From: a virus
Virus record (IMG/VR): IMGVR_UViG_3300008625_000091
Coordinates: 1-21,048 of that record
Length of the DNA: 21,048 nucleotides
Reading direction: 5' to 3' (one strand)
Below, in pieces: positions 4,814 to 19,698 of the stretch (positions are counted from its first letter, which is position 1; each line of letters starts with the position of its first letter). Below the pieces are notes generated by a model. That model made no database searches, had not been told where the DNA came from, and was given only the letters and a program-made list of their open reading frames with translations. The position numbers and the translations under genes were made by a program.

Positions 4814-4836
4814 TTTGTTTTTTTATATATTTAAGC
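4814..4836 (-). promoter_or_regulatory. Late-promoter-like element, copy 1
   Basis: The minus strand carries CTTAAATATATAAAAAAAC, which with its flanks matches the element at 14457-14479 at 22 of 23 positions. In both places it begins in the Ala-stop codon pair (GCT TAA) of the previous gene and precedes the first gene of a new run. The TAAATATATAA core is related to, but not the same as, the T4 late-promoter box TATAAATA. The promoter role is inferred from position and conservation. Confidence 0.45.
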
Positions 4837-7068
4837 CACTAATGTATATTGTGGAACATTATTTTGTGTTTGGGTCCAGCTATGGCTTACATTTATTTTT
4901 ATTTTTCCATTTTTTATTAAATTCACAAATTCATTAGATTTTTCAATGCAGACATAATTAGCGTTATCTAAATTTATAAACATTAAATAATCCCATTTTT
5001 CTTGTTTCTTATAATAATCAAATATAAATCTGCTGTACTCTAATTTAAAATCCATAAGCATCTTTTTTTCTGAAGCGGATGAATTTAAAGTATCTAAAAA
5101 TGATAATTCATTAAAATTACTAACATTTACAAAAATCTTTCTAAACAACTCTTGTAATACTTCTACAGCTTTAAGTGGGTTATCTGCATTTAATATAAAC
5201 TCTCTATACATTGATAATCCTTTATCAGTAAAATTAATATTGTTAATGTTTTTAGATATTTCTTTAAAGGGTAGTATATTTTTCTTTTTATCTAAATATT
5301 TATTATTTATTTTCTCTTTTGGTGTAAACCCATAGTTAACAACACTAGAAAAATCTTTAATGAAAGTTTTTTCATTATTTATAAAAGTACCATAGCCCCT
5401 TTGCGCTTTTAATCGAGCCCCTCTACCTTTAACTTCATAATTATTATCACCTATTTTAATATCTCCATGTTCTGCTTTTCGTCCGCCCAATAAAGCAATT
5501 AAAAATGCTTCTCCTTTTCCAATTGCAGATTTATCTATTTTTTTAGGCTCCCAGTCAATAAAAGTCTTGATAAGCTTTGTGTGAAATTTGCTATTAGTAA
5601 TTAAATTATTCTTAAAATTTGACACCTTCCCAATATCTAAATCATTGAATAACGTCCCGTCTATTGATAATTTATCAACTATTTCTATATTATCTTCTAA
5701 TGATCCGCCTGCGCCAACTAATAAAGATAAAAAGCCATTAACTACTTTATCTATACCAGTCGTTAAGCCTAAGCCTGAAAAAATCTCTTTAATTTTTGAA
5801 CTTAATCCTTGTTTATTAATGTATGTATTGATATAATTTAATTGATCAATCTCCAAGTCTTTCAATGAAAGATTTATATTATTAATTATTTCATCTCTAC
5901 CTTCACTAATCATAAAACTTTCAAAATCTTTAACTTCATCGCTGTCCTCTATAATATCTGGTTCTTTTCCTATCTTTTCATTAATCTTATCAATCAATAA
6001 ATTTATTTCTGTAATAGCAGCATTTGAAATTAGTGTAGTTTCTTTGCTTCTATGCTTTCTGAAACTACCCAACATTGCCTGAAAGATTTCACTTAAAACA
6101 TGAATGTCTAATAATTCGTTAGTTCTTTTGTTCTTAATATTTTTTTTATTAAGTTTAAATTCTGGCTTATTTGCAAAATCCATTTTCTCTAAACTCATTC
6201 CTAAAAGTCTATGCATATTCTTTTCCATATACATATTAAAAATATTTGAGATACACTCTAAATATCTTAAATCTTCACCATGTTCTTTAAGCAAAATATG
6301 CTCCCATGATTCATCTTTTATCATATATTCTACTAAGTCTAGTAATACTAAGTCGTATGAATCATTAGGCGTATATGAATCATTACTTTCTTTAAGAGAG
6401 CTCTGTAGTAGCAGATTAGAAACAACCTTTCCTGCATGAAATGTAAAAATAAATCCATTAGTATTCTTATGTGTATCTTTGTTAAGTGTCATCTCATGAA
6501 TTCTAGGGTCTAGCACTGACATAATATGTGCTGTAAATGAACTATTACTGAATAGCCCAAAAACATCTTTACTGCTCTGTGATAGCAACTCTTTTAACTT
6601 AAATTTCTGATTCTCACTTAATTTATCGTTAAATAAAATAGGCGGGTGTTCTATTTCAAATTTATCTGCCCATTCATTTAGTATCTTAGGCTCTCTAATA
6701 ATCTTTTTAACTTTATCATTCTCCATTACTTGAATTGATATAAGTATTAGATTATTCTTCGGTAGCCTGTCATATTCAGTTCTTACTGGCTTTGTATTAG
6801 TCATATAATACATTTCAAATATGTAATTATCTGGGACTTCTTCAATCATATCTTTCCAAAAACTTGAAAAATGCTCATACGCATTTTCGTATAATGATGT
6901 TAAAGTTCTATCAACTACGTTTAATGCCGTATTTGAATTTGCCTTAAATATTTCAAAACCATCGTTAACTTTCTTCACCTTAATTCTAGGCGCGTCAATC
7001 TTTTCTGTTACTAAAAGACTCTGTTTAAATAATTTGTCTAAGTTCTTTTCTTTATATAGTGATTTCAT
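4831..7068 (-). CDS. Large protein: ligase-like nucleotidyltransferase domain plus possible PD-(D/E)XK nuclease domain
   Basis: A 745-residue protein, last of the packaged-protein operon (its ATG overlaps the previous stop as ATGA). Near the N-terminus, VTEKIDAPRI (20-29) resembles motif I of the ligase/mRNA-capping superfamily (KxDG, here K23-I-D-A). YIFEMYY (82-88) with TEYDRLPKNNLILI (98-111) resembles motif III. NTNGFIFTFHAGK (202-214) may be a degraded motif IV, so ligase activity is doubtful. In the second half, GKGE (517-520), GD (535-536) and YEVKGRGARL (544-553) form a pattern like a PD-(D/E)XK nuclease active site (Glu520, Asp536, Glu545, Lys547). It lacks an N-terminal tag, but residues 380-389 (KDFESFMISE) look like an internal tag A between the two halves. 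The fold assignments rest on motifs only. An alternative is a structural head protein with relic domains. Confidence 0.5.
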   Translation of the reverse strand: MKSLYKEKNLDKLFKQSLLVTEKIDAPRIKVKKVNDGFEIFKANSNTALNVVDRTLTSLYENAYEHFSSFWKDMIEEVPDNYIFEMYYMTNTKPVRTEYDRLPKNNLILISIQVMENDKVKKIIREPKILNEWADKFEIEHPPILFNDKLSENQKFKLKELLSQSSKDVFGLFSNSSFTAHIMSVLDPRIHEMTLNKDTHKNTNGFIFTFHAGKVVSNLLLQSSLKESNDSYTPNDSYDLVLLDLVEYMIKDESWEHILLKEHGEDLRYLECISNIFNMYMEKNMHRLLGMSLEKMDFANKPEFKLNKKNIKNKRTNELLDIHVLSEIFQAMLGSFRKHRSKETTLISNAAITEINLLIDKINEKIGKEPDIIEDSDEVKDFESFMISEGRDEIINNINLSLKDLEIDQLNYINTYINKQGLSSKIKEIFSGLGLTTGIDKVVNGFLSLLVGAGGSLEDNIEIVDKLSIDGTLFNDLDIGKVSNFKNNLITNSKFHTKLIKTFIDWEPKKIDKSAIGKGEAFLIALLGGRKAEHGDIKIGDNNYEVKGRGARLKAQRGYGTFINNEKTFIKDFSSVVNYGFTPKEKINNKYLDKKKNILPFKEISKNINNINFTDKGLSMYREFILNADNPLKAVEVLQELFRKIFVNVSNFNELSFLDTLNSSASEKKMLMDFKLEYSRFIFDYYKKQEKWDYLMFINLDNANYVCIEKSNEFVNLIKNGKIKINVSHSWTQTQNNVPQYTLVA
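5902..5931 (-). other. Internal tag A-like motif within the 745-residue protein
   Basis: These bases encode KDFESFMISE, followed by Gly (residues 380-389). The spacing K-x-F-x-x-F-h-x-x-E and the ending I-S-E match the N-terminal tags of the neighbouring genes and the L/I-x-E rule of T4 prohead protease. It lies between the ligase-like and nuclease-like halves, so it may be a fusion scar or a processing site. Chance occurrence cannot be excluded for so short a motif. Confidence 0.35.
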
Positions 7069-8129
7069 AAACTTCTACTTACTGTTTCTATTCCATAATC
7101 AATGAATTTAAATATCTTCTCCATAGCAGCCCTAGCATGAGCTGTTTCAGCTTTCTTAAACTTACTGCTATGCCTTACATCAGATATTGAATTTATATAA
7201 TTTTCTTCTGTCTTGTTTATCATGTCATCTGCACTTGAAAGAGAGAATATGTGTAATAAGTCGTTCATTTCTAATGTATATGCAAGACCCTTAATGCCTA
7301 CACAGAATTTTTCAAGTGTAACATTATCTCTTGTTAAACCTTTTTGCTGCTTTAGGAGCTTATGTACTTTCATCTTCTTTTTATTCTTACCATCAAATTC
7401 CATTGCCCATTCAGCAATATCGTATAAGAAGTTGCCAAAGTCTAAACTAATAATCATCTCTTCGACATTTTTTCTCTTTCTAAAACTAACTAAGTTACCA
7501 TCAATAAACTTTGCTCTTACTCCTCTATCAAGAAAGCTCATGGTTAAAGTCAAGCCAATTGCTTTATACAAATAGCCAATAACAAAACCTTTTATGTCTT
7601 TTACTGGTGTATATCTACCTATCGCCCAATCTTTATAGATGCCACTAGTAATTAAAATGTCTGCTTGTATAAACATGTCATCTTTTGGAATTATTAAAAG
7701 CTTAATACTTGTTGGGCTTGATATCTTAACAGACTCTTCATAATCAACAGAATTTGGCTTAAACGCCTTTATCCAATCTAAAAGCATTTCATTATAAAGC
7801 TTAATTGTATCTAATTCATTTTTTCTATTATTTGTAGGATTTGGATCAAACTCTAAAATCGGATATTCAAATAAGTAATCAATATCACCATATAATTTAT
7901 CTGGTTGATTAACTAAATCATCTTCCCAATAACTGCCTGAGCCAACTGCCCGTATTGGTTTCATCGGAGGCATTCCTTCTTTATCAAGCCAGGCATTAAA
8001 CTCTTTAAAAATACTTTGTAATGTTTCATGTGCAAGCTTTAAAACATGTGGGGTTAATACAGTAGATTGTGTCTTTGCACTTGACCAGCCACCTTCATTA
8101 ATGAAGTTTGTATATGATTTAATTTTCAT
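7065..8129 (-). CDS. Pol-beta-fold nucleotidyltransferase with capsid-targeting-like leader
   Basis: A 354-residue protein of the DNA polymerase beta/CCA-adding superfamily. The active-site signature is present: GSGSYWED (63-70), then YGDIDYLFEY (80-89) with metal ligands Asp82/Asp84, and a third acidic residue, Asp157, in FIQADILIT. Such enzymes transfer nucleotides to RNA, small molecules or proteins; the substrate cannot be read from the sequence. The leader MKIKSYTNFINE, followed by Gly-Gly, has the form of the T4 internal-protein tag (MKTYQEFIAE) and ends in I-N-E, a gp21-type cleavage site. It overlaps both neighbours by 4 bases (ATGA), which implies translational coupling. A second, clearly different nucleotidyltransferase lies at 9435-10316. 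The superfamily call is firm; packaging in the virion is inference. Confidence 0.75.
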   Translation of the reverse strand: MKIKSYTNFINEGGWSSAKTQSTVLTPHVLKLAHETLQSIFKEFNAWLDKEGMPPMKPIRAVGSGSYWEDDLVNQPDKLYGDIDYLFEYPILEFDPNPTNNRKNELDTIKLYNEMLLDWIKAFKPNSVDYEESVKISSPTSIKLLIIPKDDMFIQADILITSGIYKDWAIGRYTPVKDIKGFVIGYLYKAIGLTLTMSFLDRGVRAKFIDGNLVSFRKRKNVEEMIISLDFGNFLYDIAEWAMEFDGKNKKKMKVHKLLKQQKGLTRDNVTLEKFCVGIKGLAYTLEMNDLLHIFSLSSADDMINKTEENYINSISDVRHSSKFKKAETAHARAAMEKIFKFIDYGIETVSRSL

Positions 8130-8533
8130 ACTAAATTAAATTTTTTTGCAAGTTTATATGTAAGCTTGTCGTGTGCTTTACTATGAGCAAGCGATTGCTT
8201 TGTATGTGCAAGAATTGCATGAGCAAATTCATGACACACTGCATAGTCCGCTGGGTTACTAGTTAAACCTGTATTATCGATAGTCATTTTATCTATAAAA
8301 ATAAACTTGCCGCCTCTTAATCTAGTCGTAGTTAAAAACCCACTCCCTCTTCCCTTTAAATCTTTAAAGACTAATGGAAACTTTGGAATATCTGGGTACA
8401 TCTTCTGTAATTCTTTAAAAACTTTCTTAGCATTATCAAGCTCTGATTTTAAATAATCAAACTCATTTACCTTACCAACATAGATCTTGTCTGGATTTTC
8501 TGTAATATAATTTGGATATGATTTAATTTTCAT
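8126..8533 (-). CDS. Putative zinc metallopeptidase (HExxH) with capsid-targeting-like leader
   Basis: A 135-residue protein with a zincin helix AVCHEFAHAILAH: His101, Glu102 and His105 are the metal and catalytic residues. The third ligand may be one of the following histidines (His110 or one in SLAHSKAHDK). A mixed alpha/beta region (FPLVFKDLKGRG, KFIFIDKM) precedes it, as in SprT-like or minimal metallopeptidases. The leader MKIKSYPNYITE, with cleavage-like I-T-E, is nearly the same as in the next gene's product (MKIKSYTNFINE). Its start shares one base with the stop of the exonuclease gene (TAATG), and its end overlaps the next gene by 4 bases. The substrate is unknown. If packaged, it would act either in the head or in the host after injection. 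The HExxH motif is short, but its helical context is typical. Confidence 0.65.
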   Translation of the reverse strand: MKIKSYPNYITENPDKIYVGKVNEFDYLKSELDNAKKVFKELQKMYPDIPKFPLVFKDLKGRGSGFLTTTRLRGGKFIFIDKMTIDNTGLTSNPADYAVCHEFAHAILAHTKQSLAHSKAHDKLTYKLAKKFNLV

Positions 8534-9435
8534 TATATCCTGTATTTCTTTTTCTTAGACCACCACCAAGGCTTTTTAGAAAGAGCATCGAGTTTTGCAG
8601 CATGCTGATGCTCCTTACTAATATCTATATCAATGTATTGGGTAAAGAATTCTTTCATTCTTTCAACAATTTGCATTAACATCTCAACATCAGCTTTTGC
8701 GTCATGCCATGAATCAACACTTACGCCTAACGCCTTTCCTAAATTTCCAAGCGTCGATGAAACTTTGTTTCCACGTTCTCCTGTTTTTAACTTATTAGAT
8801 AAAGCTGTTAAAATACTTTCTAACTCTTTGCTATTCTCAGCAGCTTGTAAAAGAGGAACAAAATAAAGTCTTGACAATTTTAATGTATCTAATACTTCAG
8901 CTTTAGGGAACTTTAAATCAAATAATTTAGCTCTTACATGCATAAATTTCATATCAAAGGGTGCATTGTGCGCAATTAAAATAGGATCTTTAAACTTAGA
9001 TATAAATGAAATAAAATCTTCTATTGATTTTTTCTCTTCTATAAAATCAACACCCTCATCGCCGTATCTTGTCATTTTTAAGAGTTCATCAGGATTGCTT
9101 AACCCTTTACTTTTACCTCTTGCCTTTTGTCTTTCTTCCCATCCTTTTCTTTCATCAGAATCAGGTTTTAATAAATGCTTTGCGGGGTCTCCTAATTTAG
9201 CCTTAGTGTTAAACGAATCAAGTTCTTTCATAGTTGAGCCATCATACGCAATTGCTGCAACTTGCGTAAGCTGAATATAATCTACATGAGGCTTAAGCCC
9301 TAGTGTTTCAGTATCAAAATAAATTAGAGTCTTACCTTTAAATTTTAAGGTACTGTTTAACAGTTGTTTAATAGTAAAGCCATAAAGCTTAGCCTCTTGT
9401 AGAGTTGTATAATTTGAATATGATTCAATTTTCAT
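8533..9435 (-). CDS. DnaQ-like DEDDh 3'-5' exonuclease with capsid-targeting-like leader
   Basis: A 300-residue exonuclease with all three DEDDh motifs: Exo I YFDTETLGL (Asp41, Glu43), Exo II LIAHNAPFDMKFM (Asp161) and Exo III WHDAKADVEML (His244, Asp249). This is the family of DNA polymerase III epsilon and of RNases such as RNase T and oligoribonuclease, so the substrate may be DNA or RNA. The polymerase at the left edge has its own proofreading domain, so this enzyme is probably not for proofreading. The leader MKIESYSNYTTLQE, followed by Ala, ends in L-Q-E like a prohead-protease site. A good GAGGA site lies about 6 bases before the start, which overlaps the previous stop (TAATG). The tail is basic and Trp-rich (KKPWWWSKKKKYRI), useful for nucleic-acid binding. 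Confidence 0.85.
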   Translation of the reverse strand: MKIESYSNYTTLQEAKLYGFTIKQLLNSTLKFKGKTLIYFDTETLGLKPHVDYIQLTQVAAIAYDGSTMKELDSFNTKAKLGDPAKHLLKPDSDERKGWEERQKARGKSKGLSNPDELLKMTRYGDEGVDFIEEKKSIEDFISFISKFKDPILIAHNAPFDMKFMHVRAKLFDLKFPKAEVLDTLKLSRLYFVPLLQAAENSKELESILTALSNKLKTGERGNKVSSTLGNLGKALGVSVDSWHDAKADVEMLMQIVERMKEFFTQYIDIDISKEHQHAAKLDALSKKPWWWSKKKKYRI

Positions 9436-10316
9436 TATAGTTCCTCAGGGAATGGTAACTTTGATTTACTTAAATATATTTCAAATTTTTGTATAATAAT
9501 ATCTTCTTTATTTTTATATGGAAATGTTTTTGAATTAAAAAGATCCCAGCATTTTTCAAATGTCATTATATCTTTAGCTTTAACGCCTTCACCAAATAAA
9601 GCTTCAGCTACTTCATCTGGAACATTGCTTACAACTCTATCAAAATCTTTTAAAAGTTTAGGTGTTTTAACCAAGCCACGTTTACCCTGTAAAGACTTTC
9701 TAACTTTAACAAGACCTGTATTTAATCTAATGACTAACTGCTCATATTCAACGGTTTCTCCAGTGTCTAGTTTCTTAGTGGCTTCTTTTTTAGACTCTGT
9801 TGCAATTGCCATCATTAATAAGTTTCTGTATGCACCTTTATATCTTGACTCTGTCTTGGTAAAATCTGGACTATGATACATAAATTTTGACCATTCTAAG
9901 CTATCCGAAAGCATTAAGTCAACTTGACAATATCCATTGGCTTTATCTCCTTTAATAGGAAATGGCACTGAAACTTGTTTGAATCCATAATTAACTGCAG
10001 TATCATAACCTGCAGCTTTTAAAGTCATATTTAAAAACTTTAATACTTCATTGATAGAAGTTGAGTTTTCACCTGCAAGTTTATCAATACTTACCGCAAT
10101 ATCAATATCTCCTGATTCTATATCATCGCCTTTCTTTCCAGCTGAACCTATAACTGCTGCATCTATATCAAAACCATCTAAACCTACTGCATTTAAAAGA
10201 TCCCTTTCTACATGCTCTAAGGTTTCAGGTATCTCTCTACCTAAAATAGGTCTTACGTCATCAATAGCATTACCGCTTTCATAAAGCTTCAAGAACTCTT
10301 TAAAAGTTTTAATCAT
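9435..10316 (-). CDS. Second pol-beta-fold nucleotidyltransferase with capsid-targeting-like leader
   Basis: A 293-residue protein with the superfamily signature GSAGKKGDDIESGDIDIAV (57-75): Gly57-Ser58 and metal ligands Asp70/Asp72, with the third carboxylate Asp133 in YCQVDLML. A helical C-terminal half follows (MMAIATESKKEATKKL, then RLNTGLVKVRKSLQGKRG). The leader MIKTFKEFLKLYE, followed by Ser, closely resembles T4 internal-protein tags and ends in L-Y-E. The start overlaps the stop of the 75-residue gene by 4 bases (ATGA), and its end shares one base with the exonuclease start. It differs in length and sequence from the nucleotidyltransferase at 7065-8129, so the two are not a simple recent duplication. 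The acceptor (RNA, protein or small molecule) is unknown. Confidence 0.75.
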   Translation of the reverse strand: MIKTFKEFLKLYESGNAIDDVRPILGREIPETLEHVERDLLNAVGLDGFDIDAAVIGSAGKKGDDIESGDIDIAVSIDKLAGENSTSINEVLKFLNMTLKAAGYDTAVNYGFKQVSVPFPIKGDKANGYCQVDLMLSDSLEWSKFMYHSPDFTKTESRYKGAYRNLLMMAIATESKKEATKKLDTGETVEYEQLVIRLNTGLVKVRKSLQGKRGLVKTPKLLKDFDRVVSNVPDEVAEALFGEGVKAKDIMTFEKCWDLFNSKTFPYKNKEDIIIQKFEIYLSKSKLPFPEEL

Positions 10317-10550: not shown

Positions 10551-11558
10551 TTATTTTGTGTATTTTTTATACCACTGTCGCTTTTCTAATTCTTTTTCTA
10601 TATAGTCATATAACCAATCTGCGTCCATCTTAGGTCCATCGTTCCATAAGTTATTAGCTTGAGCAGTGTCATATGTCATTTCTTCATAATCAAATCCGCC
10701 GTCATCTTTGATTCTTTGTTTAAAATCATCTTCCCATTGATTAACAAATTCTTTTGCTGCTTCTTGATATTCTTTCTTGCTCATCTTAGCTTCATTCAAA
10801 GTTTGAAGTTCTTTTCTAATAATTTTGCGAAGCTTATATGTTTCGTCCAAAGACTCTTTAACTTTAACTAAGCTTGTTTGTCCAAATCCTGGAAGTTTTG
10901 CAAGAGCTTTAATACCCTTAACAACTTCACTTGTTCTATGCAGTGTGCCGATTTTATTTCTGCCTCTATTATCATTCATATAAAAGACATTACTTAAAGT
11001 ATCAATCTCTGTATCAATAATGGCTTTGCCATCTTTTGCAATTAAAGTAATAAAGTAAGCTCTATCGTTATATTTTTCTATCTTTATAATTTTAACTTTT
11101 GCAAGTTCAAATGCGCGCTTCATTAAATTAACATCCTGTTGATCTGAAGAGTCTAAGCCTTTAATAGACCATACGTCTTTTTCATTTAAATGATTTTCGT
11201 TAAAGATTTTAAGTTGCTTTGTATATCTTTCTGTGTATTTATCGCATTTAGATTTATTTTTGCTATAAAACTTTTCCATATCTTGAACCCAAGATGCACC
11301 CATGTTACTCCTAAAGAAATCGTAAGCATCGTCGTAGTCAAGTTCTTCATCTTGGAAATAGCCTGGTGTATCAAAATCTGCTCCGTCTGGTAACTTTGTC
11401 CCAAACGTGTCAAGTATATGACCAACTGTCATTTGATCAAGAGTGATTAGCCATTGTTCAAATTTATCATATTCACTAGATGATCTTTTAAGTTTTTCAG
11501 TAAGGGTCTTAATGTTTTCTTGTATAAGTTTTCTCAATTTCTGTTCTGTTATCTTCAT
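10551..11558 (-). CDS. Unknown protein carrying two tag B motifs (N-terminal and internal)
   Basis: A 335-residue protein I cannot assign to a family. It begins MKITEQKLRKLIQENIKTLTE, tag B with two L/I-x-E sites. An acidic region follows (ADFDTPGYFQDEELDYDDAYDFF cut across 60-82), then a possible beta-rich stretch (VKIIKIEKYNDRAYFITLIA). At 241-256, YKLRKIIRKELQTLNE, followed by Ala, is a second full tag B in mid-protein. After it comes a 79-residue helical acidic unit (MSKKEYQEAAKEFVNQWEDD to KKYTK) about the size of the small tagged proteins nearby. The parsimonious reading is a fusion of two tagged proteins, possibly separated again by the prohead protease. The start overlaps the previous stop (ATGA). 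Confidence 0.65.
   Translation of the reverse strand: MKITEQKLRKLIQENIKTLTEKLKRSSSEYDKFEQWLITLDQMTVGHILDTFGTKLPDGADFDTPGYFQDEELDYDDAYDFFRSNMGASWVQDMEKFYSKNKSKCDKYTERYTKQLKIFNENHLNEKDVWSIKGLDSSDQQDVNLMKRAFELAKVKIIKIEKYNDRAYFITLIAKDGKAIIDTEIDTLSNVFYMNDNRGRNKIGTLHRTSEVVKGIKALAKLPGFGQTSLVKVKESLDETYKLRKIIRKELQTLNEAKMSKKEYQEAAKEFVNQWEDDFKQRIKDDGGFDYEEMTYDTAQANNLWNDGPKMDADWLYDYIEKELEKRQWYKKYTK
10791..10838 (-). other. Internal tag B motif within the 335-residue protein
   Basis: These bases encode YKLRKIIRKELQTLNE (residues 241-256), matching the N-terminal leaders of four other genes in this window (LRKLIR core, ending L-N-E before a small residue). The next residues are Ala-Lys-Met-Ser, as though a former start codon followed. 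It marks a likely gene-fusion joint or a protease processing site. Confidence 0.5.
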
Positions 11559-12142
11559 TGTATTGCTTTTTTTATTTTATTATAAAATTTAAAGAATAGT
11601 ACCTCTGGAATCATCGCTTTAAGTGCATCTGCGTCATCATCTTGAAATGCATGTCTTACTGCGGTTCCACTTGCACCACTTGTTCTATCATCTACTACCT
11701 TTAATTCAAATTCTTCTGTAGGCACATCTGACTTATCTGATAAAAGATAATCAATTTGGCCTTTATAGCCTTTATATCTATCTTCACCAGTTCCCATGCC
11801 CATTGGATTATAACCAATGCTTCTAAGCCATTTAATCATTTGCGGTATATTTCCCATAACATTGTCAGGCTTTACCAGTATATCTGCAATAAACTTCTTA
11901 TTCTCTTTTGCTAATGCATTACCCATATCTTGTAAGAGCTTTTTGTCTTTAATTGGAGAGTTCTTATTCTTACTAACTATTTGTATAGGTATAACTCTTA
12001 ACTTGAACATTTTATAAGCTTTTTCAAATGCTTTAAGATGCCCATTATGAAATGGCTGAAATCTCCCAGGGAATATAATTACCTTCTCTCCGGTATGTTC
12101 AGACTGGATAGACTCTACGAATTGTTTAAACTCTAAAATCAT
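11555..12142 (-). CDS. NMNAT-like adenylyl/cytidylyltransferase with leader
   Basis: A 195-residue nucleotidyltransferase of the HIGH-type superfamily that includes NMN adenylyltransferase (NAD synthesis) and cytidylyltransferases. The nucleotide-binding start is VIIFPGRFQPFHNGHLKAFE (21-40), with HNGH at 32-35 as the HxGH motif. The second signature is SGASGTAVRHAF, with SGTAVR at 158-163 as the (I)SGTxxR motif. MGTGEDRYKGY (116-126) may shape the substrate pocket. About 18 residues precede the core: MILEFKQFVESIQSE resembles a shortened tag A (F-x-x-F-V-E). The start shares one base with the upstream stop (TAATG). An NAD-related role is likely by family, but other nucleotidyl acceptors are possible. 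An NAD-synthesis enzyme placed among probable injected proteins is notable. Confidence 0.75.
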   Translation of the reverse strand: MILEFKQFVESIQSEHTGEKVIIFPGRFQPFHNGHLKAFEKAYKMFKLRVIPIQIVSKNKNSPIKDKKLLQDMGNALAKENKKFIADILVKPDNVMGNIPQMIKWLRSIGYNPMGMGTGEDRYKGYKGQIDYLLSDKSDVPTEEFELKVVDDRTSGASGTAVRHAFQDDDADALKAMIPEVLFFKFYNKIKKAIQ

Positions 12143-12411
12143 TAAGCAATCCCTTTTCTTTTAAGTTGTTTTACTAAAGCTTCAACGTCTTGCTTTGTAA
12201 AATGAACTTTTTCTCTTTTACCAAAAATTACAATACCGCCATCGTTAGTAACGTTATATTCAACCGATGGGTTTACAAATGTTTCTCGAATAGATTTGCC
12301 CTTTGTCAACCGTTCTACTTGCTTCTTAGACCGAAATGATCCAGAAGAATCTTCATTCATATGCTCTTTAATTGTTAATCTAATTAGTTTTCTTAATTCT
12401 GATTGTTTCAT
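12142..12411 (-). CDS. Small tag B protein, function unknown
   Basis: An 89-residue protein beginning MKQSELRKLIRLTIKEHMNE, a clear tag B leader with I-K-E and M-N-E as possible processing sites. The remaining part (SSGSFRSKKQVERLTKGKSI, then YNVTNDGGIVIFGKREKVHF, then FTKQDVEALVKQLKRKGIA) is basic, with a possible beta hairpin and a C-terminal helix. It ends in a one-base overlap with the NMNAT-like gene. An A/T-only stretch, not a ribosome-binding site, precedes the start, as with the tag B gene at 19698. No function can be proposed; basic charge would suit a DNA-associated internal protein. Confidence 0.6.
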   Translation of the reverse strand: MKQSELRKLIRLTIKEHMNEDSSGSFRSKKQVERLTKGKSIRETFVNPSVEYNVTNDGGIVIFGKREKVHFTKQDVEALVKQLKRKGIA

Positions 12412-12415
12412 CTTA

Positions 12416-12811
12416 TTATTTTATTTTATTTATCCATTTTTTCACTTCTCTTTGTGCCCAATCTTCAGCCTTTATTTCAAAGCTGTTATCTTTATAAAAA
12501 TCTCCGTTATTAGCTAAAGCAATGTCACCTGCATGCTTATATTCATCTTTATATTTCTTAACACCCATTTCATATACACCCCTGACATGATTAATTTCAT
12601 GTAAAACAGTAATAAGAAAATCTTTCTCTGTTTTATATGAAGTTCTTAATCTTATTGTGTCACTATCCCAATCATATTCAGCTTTATTTTTTAAATTTTT
12701 AACAAACTTTACTTTAGTATTAAAGCCATAGTGCTTAATAAGAGAACTTGCAACTTCAAGATAATCTATTCTTTCATTAATAAAGTTCTCAAACGTTTTA
12801 ATAATACCCAT
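12416..12811 (-). CDS. Putative zinc metallopeptidase (HEINH) with capsid-targeting-like leader
   Basis: A 131-residue protein with the zincin motif ITVLHEINHVRG: His71, Glu72 and His75. Downstream, SFEIKAEDWAQREV (110-123) offers Glu112 or Glu116 as the third zinc ligand, the arrangement of gluzincins. The leader MGIIKTFENFINE, followed by Arg, is tag A with I-N-E. It starts right after the stop of the ligase-like gene (TAA then ATG). It differs clearly from the HEFAH protein at 8126-8533, so the operon encodes two separate zincins. The substrate is unknown. Possible targets are host proteins after injection or phage head proteins during maturation. Confidence 0.65.
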   Translation of the reverse strand: MGIIKTFENFINERIDYLEVASSLIKHYGFNTKVKFVKNLKNKAEYDWDSDTIRLRTSYKTEKDFLITVLHEINHVRGVYEMGVKKYKDEYKHAGDIALANNGDFYKDNSFEIKAEDWAQREVKKWINKIK

Positions 12812-14101
12812 TTATAACTTTCCAAATTTTATGATTGAAACAATTTGATGTATTGGAGCAAAAAGACCAGTAAACTTATAAAGCTTTCCCTTAAAGTTAA
12901 AAACTATACCTTCACTTGCAACTAATTTGTTTAAGCCACCCGCGTTTTCAATTCTTTTCATTTCACTTTCAACTTTTTTAATAGCTGTAGCATTATCAGA
13001 CGCGTTTATAACATTAATTGCATCCTCTAATTGTTTTCTCATTACTTCGCTACTTCCATCTAAATCAGTTGCTAAATAAGAACTCATTTGCTGCATTACT
13101 TCTGTACCTACCTTAAGAAAGACAGTTTCTATTGGCTGAACAAAATCTTTCCAATCTGCCTTCCATCCGCCAGCTTTTGCTGAATAGCCAATCACCCACT
13201 CTTGAAACTTTTCATTTTCAATTTTCTTCATGTCTCTAACTGTAAAGTATGAACCTTTTTGTTCAGCAAATCTTTGCGAAAGTAGATTAATTTCATCTAT
13301 AGATATTTCATAATTAAATGAATTTGCCCAAGACTTAATCTTTTCACCGAACGAATAATATAGCAAATCACCTATAGTATCGCTGTCTTTAAGCCCAGCT
13401 TCTTTTATAATTTTATTCACGTTACTCTTTAACGTATTTGCTATCTTTGGAAACTTGTCAGACTTAACTAGTGTAATAAAATTAGGAGCTTGTAAAGAAA
13501 ACGATGATTGTTTATTTGCATTAACTTTAACAAGTTCTTTCTCAAGCATCTTAGTAATCTTAGAATCCATCTCAGAGGCTTGTTTACCATTATCATCATA
13601 TTCTATTAAGCCATGAAATACTAATAAAGGGCTTCCATAATAAACTGTGTTGGATGACTTCGGATGAATAACTTCTAATGAAAGAAATCTCCTGCCTTCA
13701 CCAAATACTTCTAATAGTAATTTCTTAGGTAATGCAGAAAGAGCAGCACTTAAATCCGAGCCTGCTAAATACATCACATCAGCTACAGCTTTCCATTGCT
13801 CTTTAACATCAGAAAGAAACCAAGCTTTCTCTGCCTGATTCTTCTTTGTGTGAACCTGTTTTGCAAATCTTATCTCATCATTCTTCCATGTAATAGAAAG
13901 TTGAATGCCATCTGTTTTCTCAGAAACCATGTTCTCCCTTCTAAATCCAATATCTAAAGAAAGTTCAATAAGTTCTTTTATCTCTGTAAATGATAATGTT
14001 AAATCTTCAAATGGGTGCTGAAGATGGCCAAATGATCCACCTTCAATTAATAAATTAGACATAGATTCATTTACAAAATCTTTAAATGAATGAAGCCTCA
14101 T
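12812..14101 (-). CDS. DNA/RNA ligase-like nucleotidyltransferase with capsid-targeting-like leader
   Basis: A 429-residue protein of the ligase/capping-enzyme superfamily. Motif I is SEKTDGIQLSI, with the AMP-accepting Lys62 in K-T-D-G. Motif III is RFLSLEVIHP (138-147, Glu143), followed by VYYGSPLLVFHGL. Motif IV is SEGIVFNF (Glu397), and motif V is KLYKFTG (Lys406/Lys409). Unlike the 745-residue protein, all key residues are kept, so it is probably active in joining or adenylylating nucleic acid. Two leader-like sites occur: MRLHSFKDFVNE (V-N-E) and SMSNLLIE followed by Gly-Gly (L-I-E at 18-20). The long insert between motifs III and IV is unusual for a small ligase. It is second in the packaged-protein operon, 4 bases after the acidic protein. 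RNA versus DNA substrate is undecided. Confidence 0.7.
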   Translation of the reverse strand: MRLHSFKDFVNESMSNLLIEGGSFGHLQHPFEDLTLSFTEIKELIELSLDIGFRRENMVSEKTDGIQLSITWKNDEIRFAKQVHTKKNQAEKAWFLSDVKEQWKAVADVMYLAGSDLSAALSALPKKLLLEVFGEGRRFLSLEVIHPKSSNTVYYGSPLLVFHGLIEYDDNGKQASEMDSKITKMLEKELVKVNANKQSSFSLQAPNFITLVKSDKFPKIANTLKSNVNKIIKEAGLKDSDTIGDLLYYSFGEKIKSWANSFNYEISIDEINLLSQRFAEQKGSYFTVRDMKKIENEKFQEWVIGYSAKAGGWKADWKDFVQPIETVFLKVGTEVMQQMSSYLATDLDGSSEVMRKQLEDAINVINASDNATAIKKVESEMKRIENAGGLNKLVASEGIVFNFKGKLYKFTGLFAPIHQIVSIIKFGKL

Positions 14102-19359: not shown

Positions 19360-19698
19360 TTAATGGTTTTTTCTTGCCCATTCGTCCATTTTACCTAAAT
19401 CAACGTTTTTATATTTATTTGTATACTTCATAGAATAGCAAAACATTGCAATCCAATTATAATCCCAAGCATCTTTTAATTTATTATCTTTTACAAATTT
19501 AGTAATCCATATTTGTAAATCTTTATTTTCTATTTTTTTCTTATCAACACCTTTATTTGCAACTAAAAATTTATCAGATTGCTTTTCTGGAGAATCTACA
19601 CCATACCAATATCTATGCTTAGTGTTTATTGCAATGTTGCCTTCATTCAAGCTTTGAATTTCTTCTCTAATTATTTTTTGTAATTCTGATGTTTTCAT
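19360..19698 (-). CDS. Tag B protein, function unknown
   Basis: A 112-residue protein that begins MKTSELQKIIREEIQSLNE, followed by Gly, the clearest tag B leader with a gp21-like L-N-E site. It lies outside the main packaged-protein operon. The body is basic and Trp/Tyr-rich (HRYWYGVDSPEKQ, then DLQIWITKFVKDNKLKDAWD, then YNWIAMFCYSMKYTNKYKNV), probably a small helical domain. No family is recognised. An A/T-only stretch of about 20 bases precedes the ATG, similar to that before the tag B gene at 12411. It sits between the glycine-zipper protein and the RuvC-like gene. Confidence 0.6.
   Translation of the reverse strand: MKTSELQKIIREEIQSLNEGNIAINTKHRYWYGVDSPEKQSDKFLVANKGVDKKKIENKDLQIWITKFVKDNKLKDAWDYNWIAMFCYSMKYTNKYKNVDLGKMDEWARKNH

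Follow-up and report, generated by a model that had tools for sequence, protein, structure and literature searches.

The window, meaning the whole 21,048-nucleotide stretch of DNA analysed here, which comes from a marine T4-like virus, encodes on one strand an RNA-ligase-fold protein together with an exonuclease, nucleotidyltransferases, and a second ligase-fold protein (Table 1). The 12812-14101 reading frame (minus strand) recurs as an identical copy in the 75-kb contig IMGVR_UViG_3300009374_000001, which belongs to the same virus. Its product shares 27-37% identity with 48 aligned relatives, and residues E61, K62, D64, G65, E143, E397, G398, K409, and T411 are invariant in every one of them. 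Because these residues are identical in 48 of 48 relatives, the ligase motifs are not a product of chance, and motifs I, III, IV, and V are indeed retained, as an earlier reading of the sequence alone had proposed.

Table 1. Features of the window ligase-fold gene and its neighbours (arrow, predicted cleavage position).
Feature	Coordinates	Strand	Basis
RNA-ligase-fold protein, 429 aa	12812..14101	-	ATG start, ORF, alignment, and model
Capsid-targeting-type leader, aa 1-20 (MRLHSFKDFVNESMSNLLIE)	14042..14101	-	sequence and leader statistics
Looser protease-type site FVNE↓S, aa 9-13	14063..14077	-	sequence; outside strict L/I-X-E consensus
Predicted prohead-protease site LIE↓G, aa 18-21	14039..14050	-	position matches inter-domain site of relatives
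Motif I, E61-K62-T-D64-G65	13907..13921	-	K62 is the predicted nucleophile; 48/48 relatives
Motif Ia position, aa 80-84	13850..13864	-	altered in window, A-K-Q-V-H for A-R-N-K-G
Motif III region, aa 139-147, E143	13661..13687	-	alignment and profile
Mainly helical insert between motifs III/IIIa and IV, aa 177-392	12926..13573	-	model, alignment
Motif IV, SEGIVF, aa 396-401	12899..12916	-	alignment
Motif V, Y-K409-F-T411-G	12866..12880	-	alignment; K-x-T as in MthRnl
HxGH adenylyl/cytidylyltransferase with leader	11555..12142	-	PF01467, 3.2e-8; partner domain of the ligase in polyproteins
Pol-beta-type nucleotidyltransferase with leader	9435..10316	-	GS...DxD pattern; 49% identical to L020 gene
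RNase_T exonuclease with leader	8533..9435	-	Pfam; similarity to L032 domain
Second RNA-ligase-fold protein, aa 1-230 of 745	4831..7068	-	motifs degenerate

Outside these residues the family has a distinct build. Motif V carries a single lysine followed by threonine in 48 of 48 relatives, an arrangement found in MthRnl, an active archaeal ligase (PMC3514331). Motifs III and IV lie about 251 residues apart, compared with 68 in Rnl1 and 105 in Rnl2, the family having some 190 extra residues in this interval. The chain ends just 18 residues beyond T411, and the RNA-binding domain that usually follows motif V is absent.

The window copy departs from its relatives at motif Ia, which reads A-R-N-K-G in nearly all of them and is altered here by the changes R81K, N82Q, and K83V. 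The sequence-only reading, which did not list this motif, called the ligase apparently intact, a description that fits the open reading frame and motifs I, III, IV, and V but not motif Ia. The family residue N67 (44 of 48 relatives) is likewise replaced by Q, and the window protein sits on a long tree branch. Loss of the motif Ia arginine corresponds to the R55K change of T4 Rnl2, which lowers self-adenylylation and keeps strand joining (PMC3149579). Full activity of the window copy is uncertain because motif Ia is altered; judged from its sequence, the copy may be weakened or specialised, and we give catalytic activity slightly better than an even chance.

The second ligase-fold protein has clearly degenerate motifs. 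A model of its residues 1-379 matches T4 Rnl2 at Z 10.5, with all leading rows ligases, and its motif I reads EKIDA in the window and EKISG, ENLDG, or EDVKG in relatives. Since motif I varies in this way and motif IV lacks E-G, the protein is probably non-catalytic. The presence of so clearly degenerate a neighbour, the loss of R81, N82, K83, and N67, and the long branch would all suit a 12812-14101 product that is itself decaying, or that is kept for binding or structure within a family that is catalytic overall. We regard this as unlikely, because K62, D64, E143, E397, and K409 are kept, the reading frame is intact and identical in two assemblies, and T4 Rnl2 can lose the equivalent arginine and still join strands.

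The window protein almost certainly adopts the ligase fold. An AlphaFold model (45 window and IMG/VR sequences; mean pLDDT 81, pTM 0.79) was compared with known structures, and the earlier assignment to the ligase-type nucleotidyltransferases, which had been staked on a compatible fold, is borne out by leading matches that are ligases. The top 22 rows of a Foldseek search of the PDB are all ligases, yet every E-value exceeds 0.001. With VIA-align 2, the best match is NgrRnl at a moderate Z of 8.8 (rmsd 4.5 over 184 residues), followed by T4 Rnl1 (7.5), a fungal tRNA ligase (7.4), TbREL1 (7.3), and T4 Rnl2 (7.2); the first non-ligase appears at Z 5.1, and DNA ligases rank below RNA ligases. In a viral structure library the domain is matched over its whole length (TM 0.72-0.85) by phage proteins, several named cytidyltransferase-like, and RNA ligases come next.

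At the level of sequence, scans of the window protein against Pfam (to E 1), PHROGs, and NCBIfam returned nothing convincing, including no match to PF19782 (DUF6267) in Pfam at E 1 or to TIGR01209 (archaeal Rnl3) in NCBIfam, and sequence searches of PDB chains gave chance matches only. By hhalign the family is nearest to T4 Rnl1 (E 1e-4, score 42.2 against a shuffled maximum of 31.1), while comparisons with Rnl2 and DUF6267 fall inside the shuffle range, as does Rnl1 against Rnl2, which makes the test a weak one. Kinship to Rnl2 and DUF6267 therefore rests on structure and motif register.

The K-x-D-G of motif I, the glutamate of motif III, the E-G of motif IV, the lysine of motif V, and the fold itself are those of the covalent nucleotidyltransferase superfamily of ligases and capping enzymes. 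Within it, T4 Rnl1 (gp63) shares the fold and is the best profile match over motifs I to IIIa, but Rnl1 has K-x-K in motif V and a C-terminal domain after it, whereas the family has K-x-T, the insert of about 190 residues, and a leader or polyprotein setting. MthRnl and PAB1020 (Rnl3) share the fold (2vug, Z 6.1) and the single motif V lysine followed by threonine (PMC3514331) but carry a C-terminal dimer domain that the family, found in phage polyproteins, lacks; this comparison draws on the literature and structure rows, TIGR01209 having given weak partial matches in the phylum searched. The window protein is a stand-alone member of a previously unannotated phage family of RNA-ligase-fold covalent nucleotidyltransferases, one for which the Pfam, PHROGs, and NCBIfam collections searched have no model.

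The family is widespread and common in ocean viruses, and is more interesting than the single window gene. A profile scan found relatives encoded on at least 546 IMG/VR stretches; a scan with the window sequence alone recovered only the same virus, and a four-sequence profile was required to reach the rest. Among 50,697 phage records, three encode relatives, namely Microcystis phage Mel-JY01, of which no mention was found in the open-access literature, and two huge uncultured phages. Nothing points to a cellular family, since the genome-contig collection yielded three relatives, all on metagenome-assembled contigs.

Most relatives carry the ligase domain at the extreme C-terminus of a long reading frame of up to 2463 aa. 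An HxGH adenylyltransferase lies N-terminal of the ligase in most of these polyproteins and is its most constant partner. Some contain a P-loop kinase (AAA_33, with weak matches to polynucleotide kinase phrog_505), some a CCA tRNA nucleotidyltransferase (PF01743, 5.5e-31 in L074) with an HD domain, and some an RNase_T exonuclease. The L074, L006, and L032 products combine many unrelated domains in one polypeptide in the manner of polyvalent proteins, which the window protein does not. In L032, exonuclease, HxGH domain, and ligase form one chain, and in the window the same three are separate genes, each with a leader. The two exonucleases are 49% identical over 263 aa (7.6e-81), and the LQE↓A of the window exonuclease leader falls within two residues of an LVE↓G in L032. 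A second record, L020, has the gene order of the window (ligase, HxGH, Pol-beta enzyme, second ligase-fold gene), its first three genes bear leaders, and its ligase groups with the window ligase in the tree (support 0.93). The earlier grouping of the ligase with the exonuclease and nucleotidyltransferases is thus well founded, both in the L032 fusion and in relatives that join the ligase to a CCA tRNA nucleotidyltransferase, HD domain, and kinase.

The leader of the window ligase, MRLHSFKDFVNE↓SMSNLLIE↓GG, contains one strict gp21-type site (L-I-E↓G) and one loose site (V-N-E↓S). Of the two protease-type sites read from the sequence, the L-I-E site stands and the V-N-E site lies outside the consensus. 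T4 gp21 cleaves after L/I-X-E, and in T4 a stretch of ten residues at the N-terminus is enough to direct a protein to the head (PMC9026906). Leaders of the ligase type begin 9 of the 25 window genes, compared with 3.4% of internal 20-mers, and the virus has T4-type capsid and prohead-protease genes, in agreement with a packaging-type leader; several leaders have no strict L/I-x-E at their end. The LLIE↓GG of the stand-alone leader occupies the same place as the polyprotein site, and in 26 of 34 polyproteins a gp21-type site stands immediately before the ligase. Among 31 long complete reading frames, 20 have an N-terminal site when N is also allowed after the glutamate. The L-x-E before the ligase is absent in some relatives, with M in 9 of 48 and C in 1 of 48.

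Across 34 non-redundant polyproteins, protease-type sites are confined to linkers. In the domains, 20,891 residues in all, the pattern [LI]xE[GSA] appears a single time where shuffles expect 23.6; the linkers, with 19,428 residues, contain 117 copies, against 31.3 in shuffles (maximum 49). These counts come from homologous and hence non-independent sequences and use tighter domain limits set, partly post hoc, after strays were seen at domain edges. With the first, looser limits, 31 sites fell in domains and 87 in linkers. Control motifs, rearranged or charge-changed, gave flat linker-to-domain ratios of 0.4-1.5.

A candidate protease is encoded in nearly all of the records compared. Of 18 records, 17 have Peptidase_S77, the gp21 family, and 11 have Gp23; in the IMG/VR polyprotein records and Mel-JY01 the protease gene follows some 6-11 kb downstream of the ligase gene, both being on one strand. 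The window virus has its Peptidase_S77 match in the 75-kb contig, where the two genes are about 27 kb apart. An N-terminal leader, an L/I-X-E site, and a gp21-family protease in the same virus are the features of T4-type capsid-targeted internal proteins, the internal head proteins and Alt among them. The cargo here differs in consisting of nucleic-acid enzymes, and the relatives chain many domains with sites at the linkers. From these features we consider packaging with gp21-type processing highly probable.

We propose, with moderate confidence, that the window virus encodes a head-packaged, prohead-protease-matured RNA-repair set split into separate genes. The leader would draw the ligase-fold protein into the prohead, where the gp21-type protease would trim it after LIE to leave a product beginning GGSFGHLQHPFED..., and the trimmed protein would be injected with the genome. 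K62 would then take AMP from ATP, and the ligase, with the co-injected exonuclease and nucleotidyltransferases (in relatives also kinase, CCA enzyme, and HD domain), would restore and seal RNA ends, most likely those of tRNAs cleaved by host defence nucleases. Most relatives would start from a single polyprotein, which the head protease would divide into the individual enzymes; the window virus would make the same enzymes from separate genes, one leader each. Injected RNA repair had been suggested from the sequence, and the suggestion gains ground mainly through the relatives; for the window copy itself the altered motif Ia speaks against it.

RNA repair as the function is, in our assessment, somewhat favoured, and the HxGH partner, which has no clear role in RNA sealing, counts against it. 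The constancy of this partner could instead mean that the packaged ligase-fold protein is an adenylyltransferase whose product is not sealed RNA. Together with the NMNAT-like HxGH enzyme, it would adenylylate some other acceptor (a protein, small molecule, or RNA 5' end) or carry out nucleotide or NAD+ chemistry against host signalling. The reversed domain order in S-PM2, the report of NMNAT-like proteins in cyanophage virions (PMC10665884), and the lack of a canonical RNA-binding C-terminal domain would suit such a role. RNA ligases are nevertheless the closest folds and profile, and co-fusion with a CCA tRNA nucleotidyltransferase, HD domain, and kinase points to RNA ends; we judge another acceptor fairly unlikely. 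A ligase for DNA ends or nicks, which would seal breaks left in the entering genome by restriction or by nicked packaging, is very unlikely: the fold is common to DNA ligases, and the exonuclease and polynucleotide-kinase-like domain could act on DNA too, but DNA ligases are the poorer structural matches, no OB domain with motif VI follows motif V, and the family is fused to a CCA tRNA nucleotidyltransferase. For the sealing of genome breaks, an alternative raised by the sequence-only reading, we found no specific support.

Known phage RNA repair depends on proteins synthesised once infection has begun, T4 PseT and Rnl1 among them. In T4 these two repair PrrC-cut tRNA (T4 record note). A pre-loaded RNA-repair kit, if real, would act at once against tRNA-cutting defences. 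Extended to the family, the RNA-repair reading would have many uncultivated marine T4-like viruses package a polyprotein of kinase, CCA-adding enzyme, HD domain, exonuclease, HxGH adenylyltransferase, and RNA ligase of the new type, in sets that vary, which would be cut at its linkers in the head before injection and deliver tRNA repair before phage gene expression. We advance this tentatively, at a little under an even chance. If correct, it would give the prohead protease a role as maturation protease for cargo enzymes, and provide a simple rule for the giant reading frames of marine viruses, to be split at L/I-x-E before a small residue. Polyvalent proteins are likewise large multidomain phage polypeptides, presumed to be injected, but they rely on embedded peptidases for release, which is here proposed to fall to the head protease, and the paper describing them states that its 2H domains were never found together with RNA ligases (Iyer et al., 2017, PMC5512222). 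Jumbo-phage RNA repair sets also unite RNA ligases with kinases, phosphoesterases, CCA-adding enzymes, and Pol-beta enzymes, but with known ligase families rather than the window family in a packaged polyprotein (Iyer et al., 2021, PMC7824862). No account of a head protease processing an RNA-ligase polyprotein turned up in the open-access literature.

The cyanophage family DUF6267 (PF19782) is probably an RNA-ligase-fold domain distantly related to the window family, a link that would extend the ligase family to many cyanophage genomes. The two share an upstream H-x-x-H signature, the K-x-D-G and E-G motifs, and pairing with HxGH, but the profile score lies within the shuffle range and the domain order is reversed in S-PM2, where DUF6267 is fused to HxGH in a protein that is a distant structural match of the family. 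In S-SM1, a DUF6267-type gene (T4-GC71) adjoins the cytidylyltransferase T4-GC190, a protein detected in virions of this phage (PMC3037559). A cytidylyltransferase is likewise present in the virions of S-CREM2, although the authors caution about co-purification (PMC10665884). Cyanophage DUF6267 proteins at L103:33486-35261 and L104:1441-3565 keep K-x-D-G and E-G and are fused to or adjoin HxGH cytidylyltransferases.

Further observations concern the polyproteins and the other window genes. In the 2463-aa polyprotein at L074:1848-9236, about 800 residues between HxGH domain and ligase match no family, and the LxE sites suggest several further putative cargo pieces. A subclade (L006-L010, L012, and L015) has LLLMGG in place of L-x-E-GG ahead of the ligase domain, which may there stay joined to the upstream part or be cut elsewhere. 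The C-terminal part of the 4831-7068 protein includes the sequence GD..YEVKG, reminiscent of a PD-(D/E)xK nuclease. The leader-bearing products of 7065-8129 and 9435-10316 (minus strand) have Pol-beta-type GS...DxD patterns and no Pfam, NCBIfam, or PDB sequence match; the label RlaP, considered for them, is not supportable, there being no Pfam match. A second recurring leader type, roughly MK-x-S/T-E-L-x-K-I/L-I-R/Q, begins the genes at 10551-11558, 12142-12411, and 19360-19698 (minus strand), is also present in the huge phage L004, and is possibly another packaging signal. Finally, the small leader-bearing proteins of 12416-12811 and 8126-8533 (minus strand) show weak zincin-type matches (MPTase-PolyVal, E 9e-4; SprT-like, E 0.02) and are possibly packaged metallopeptidases.
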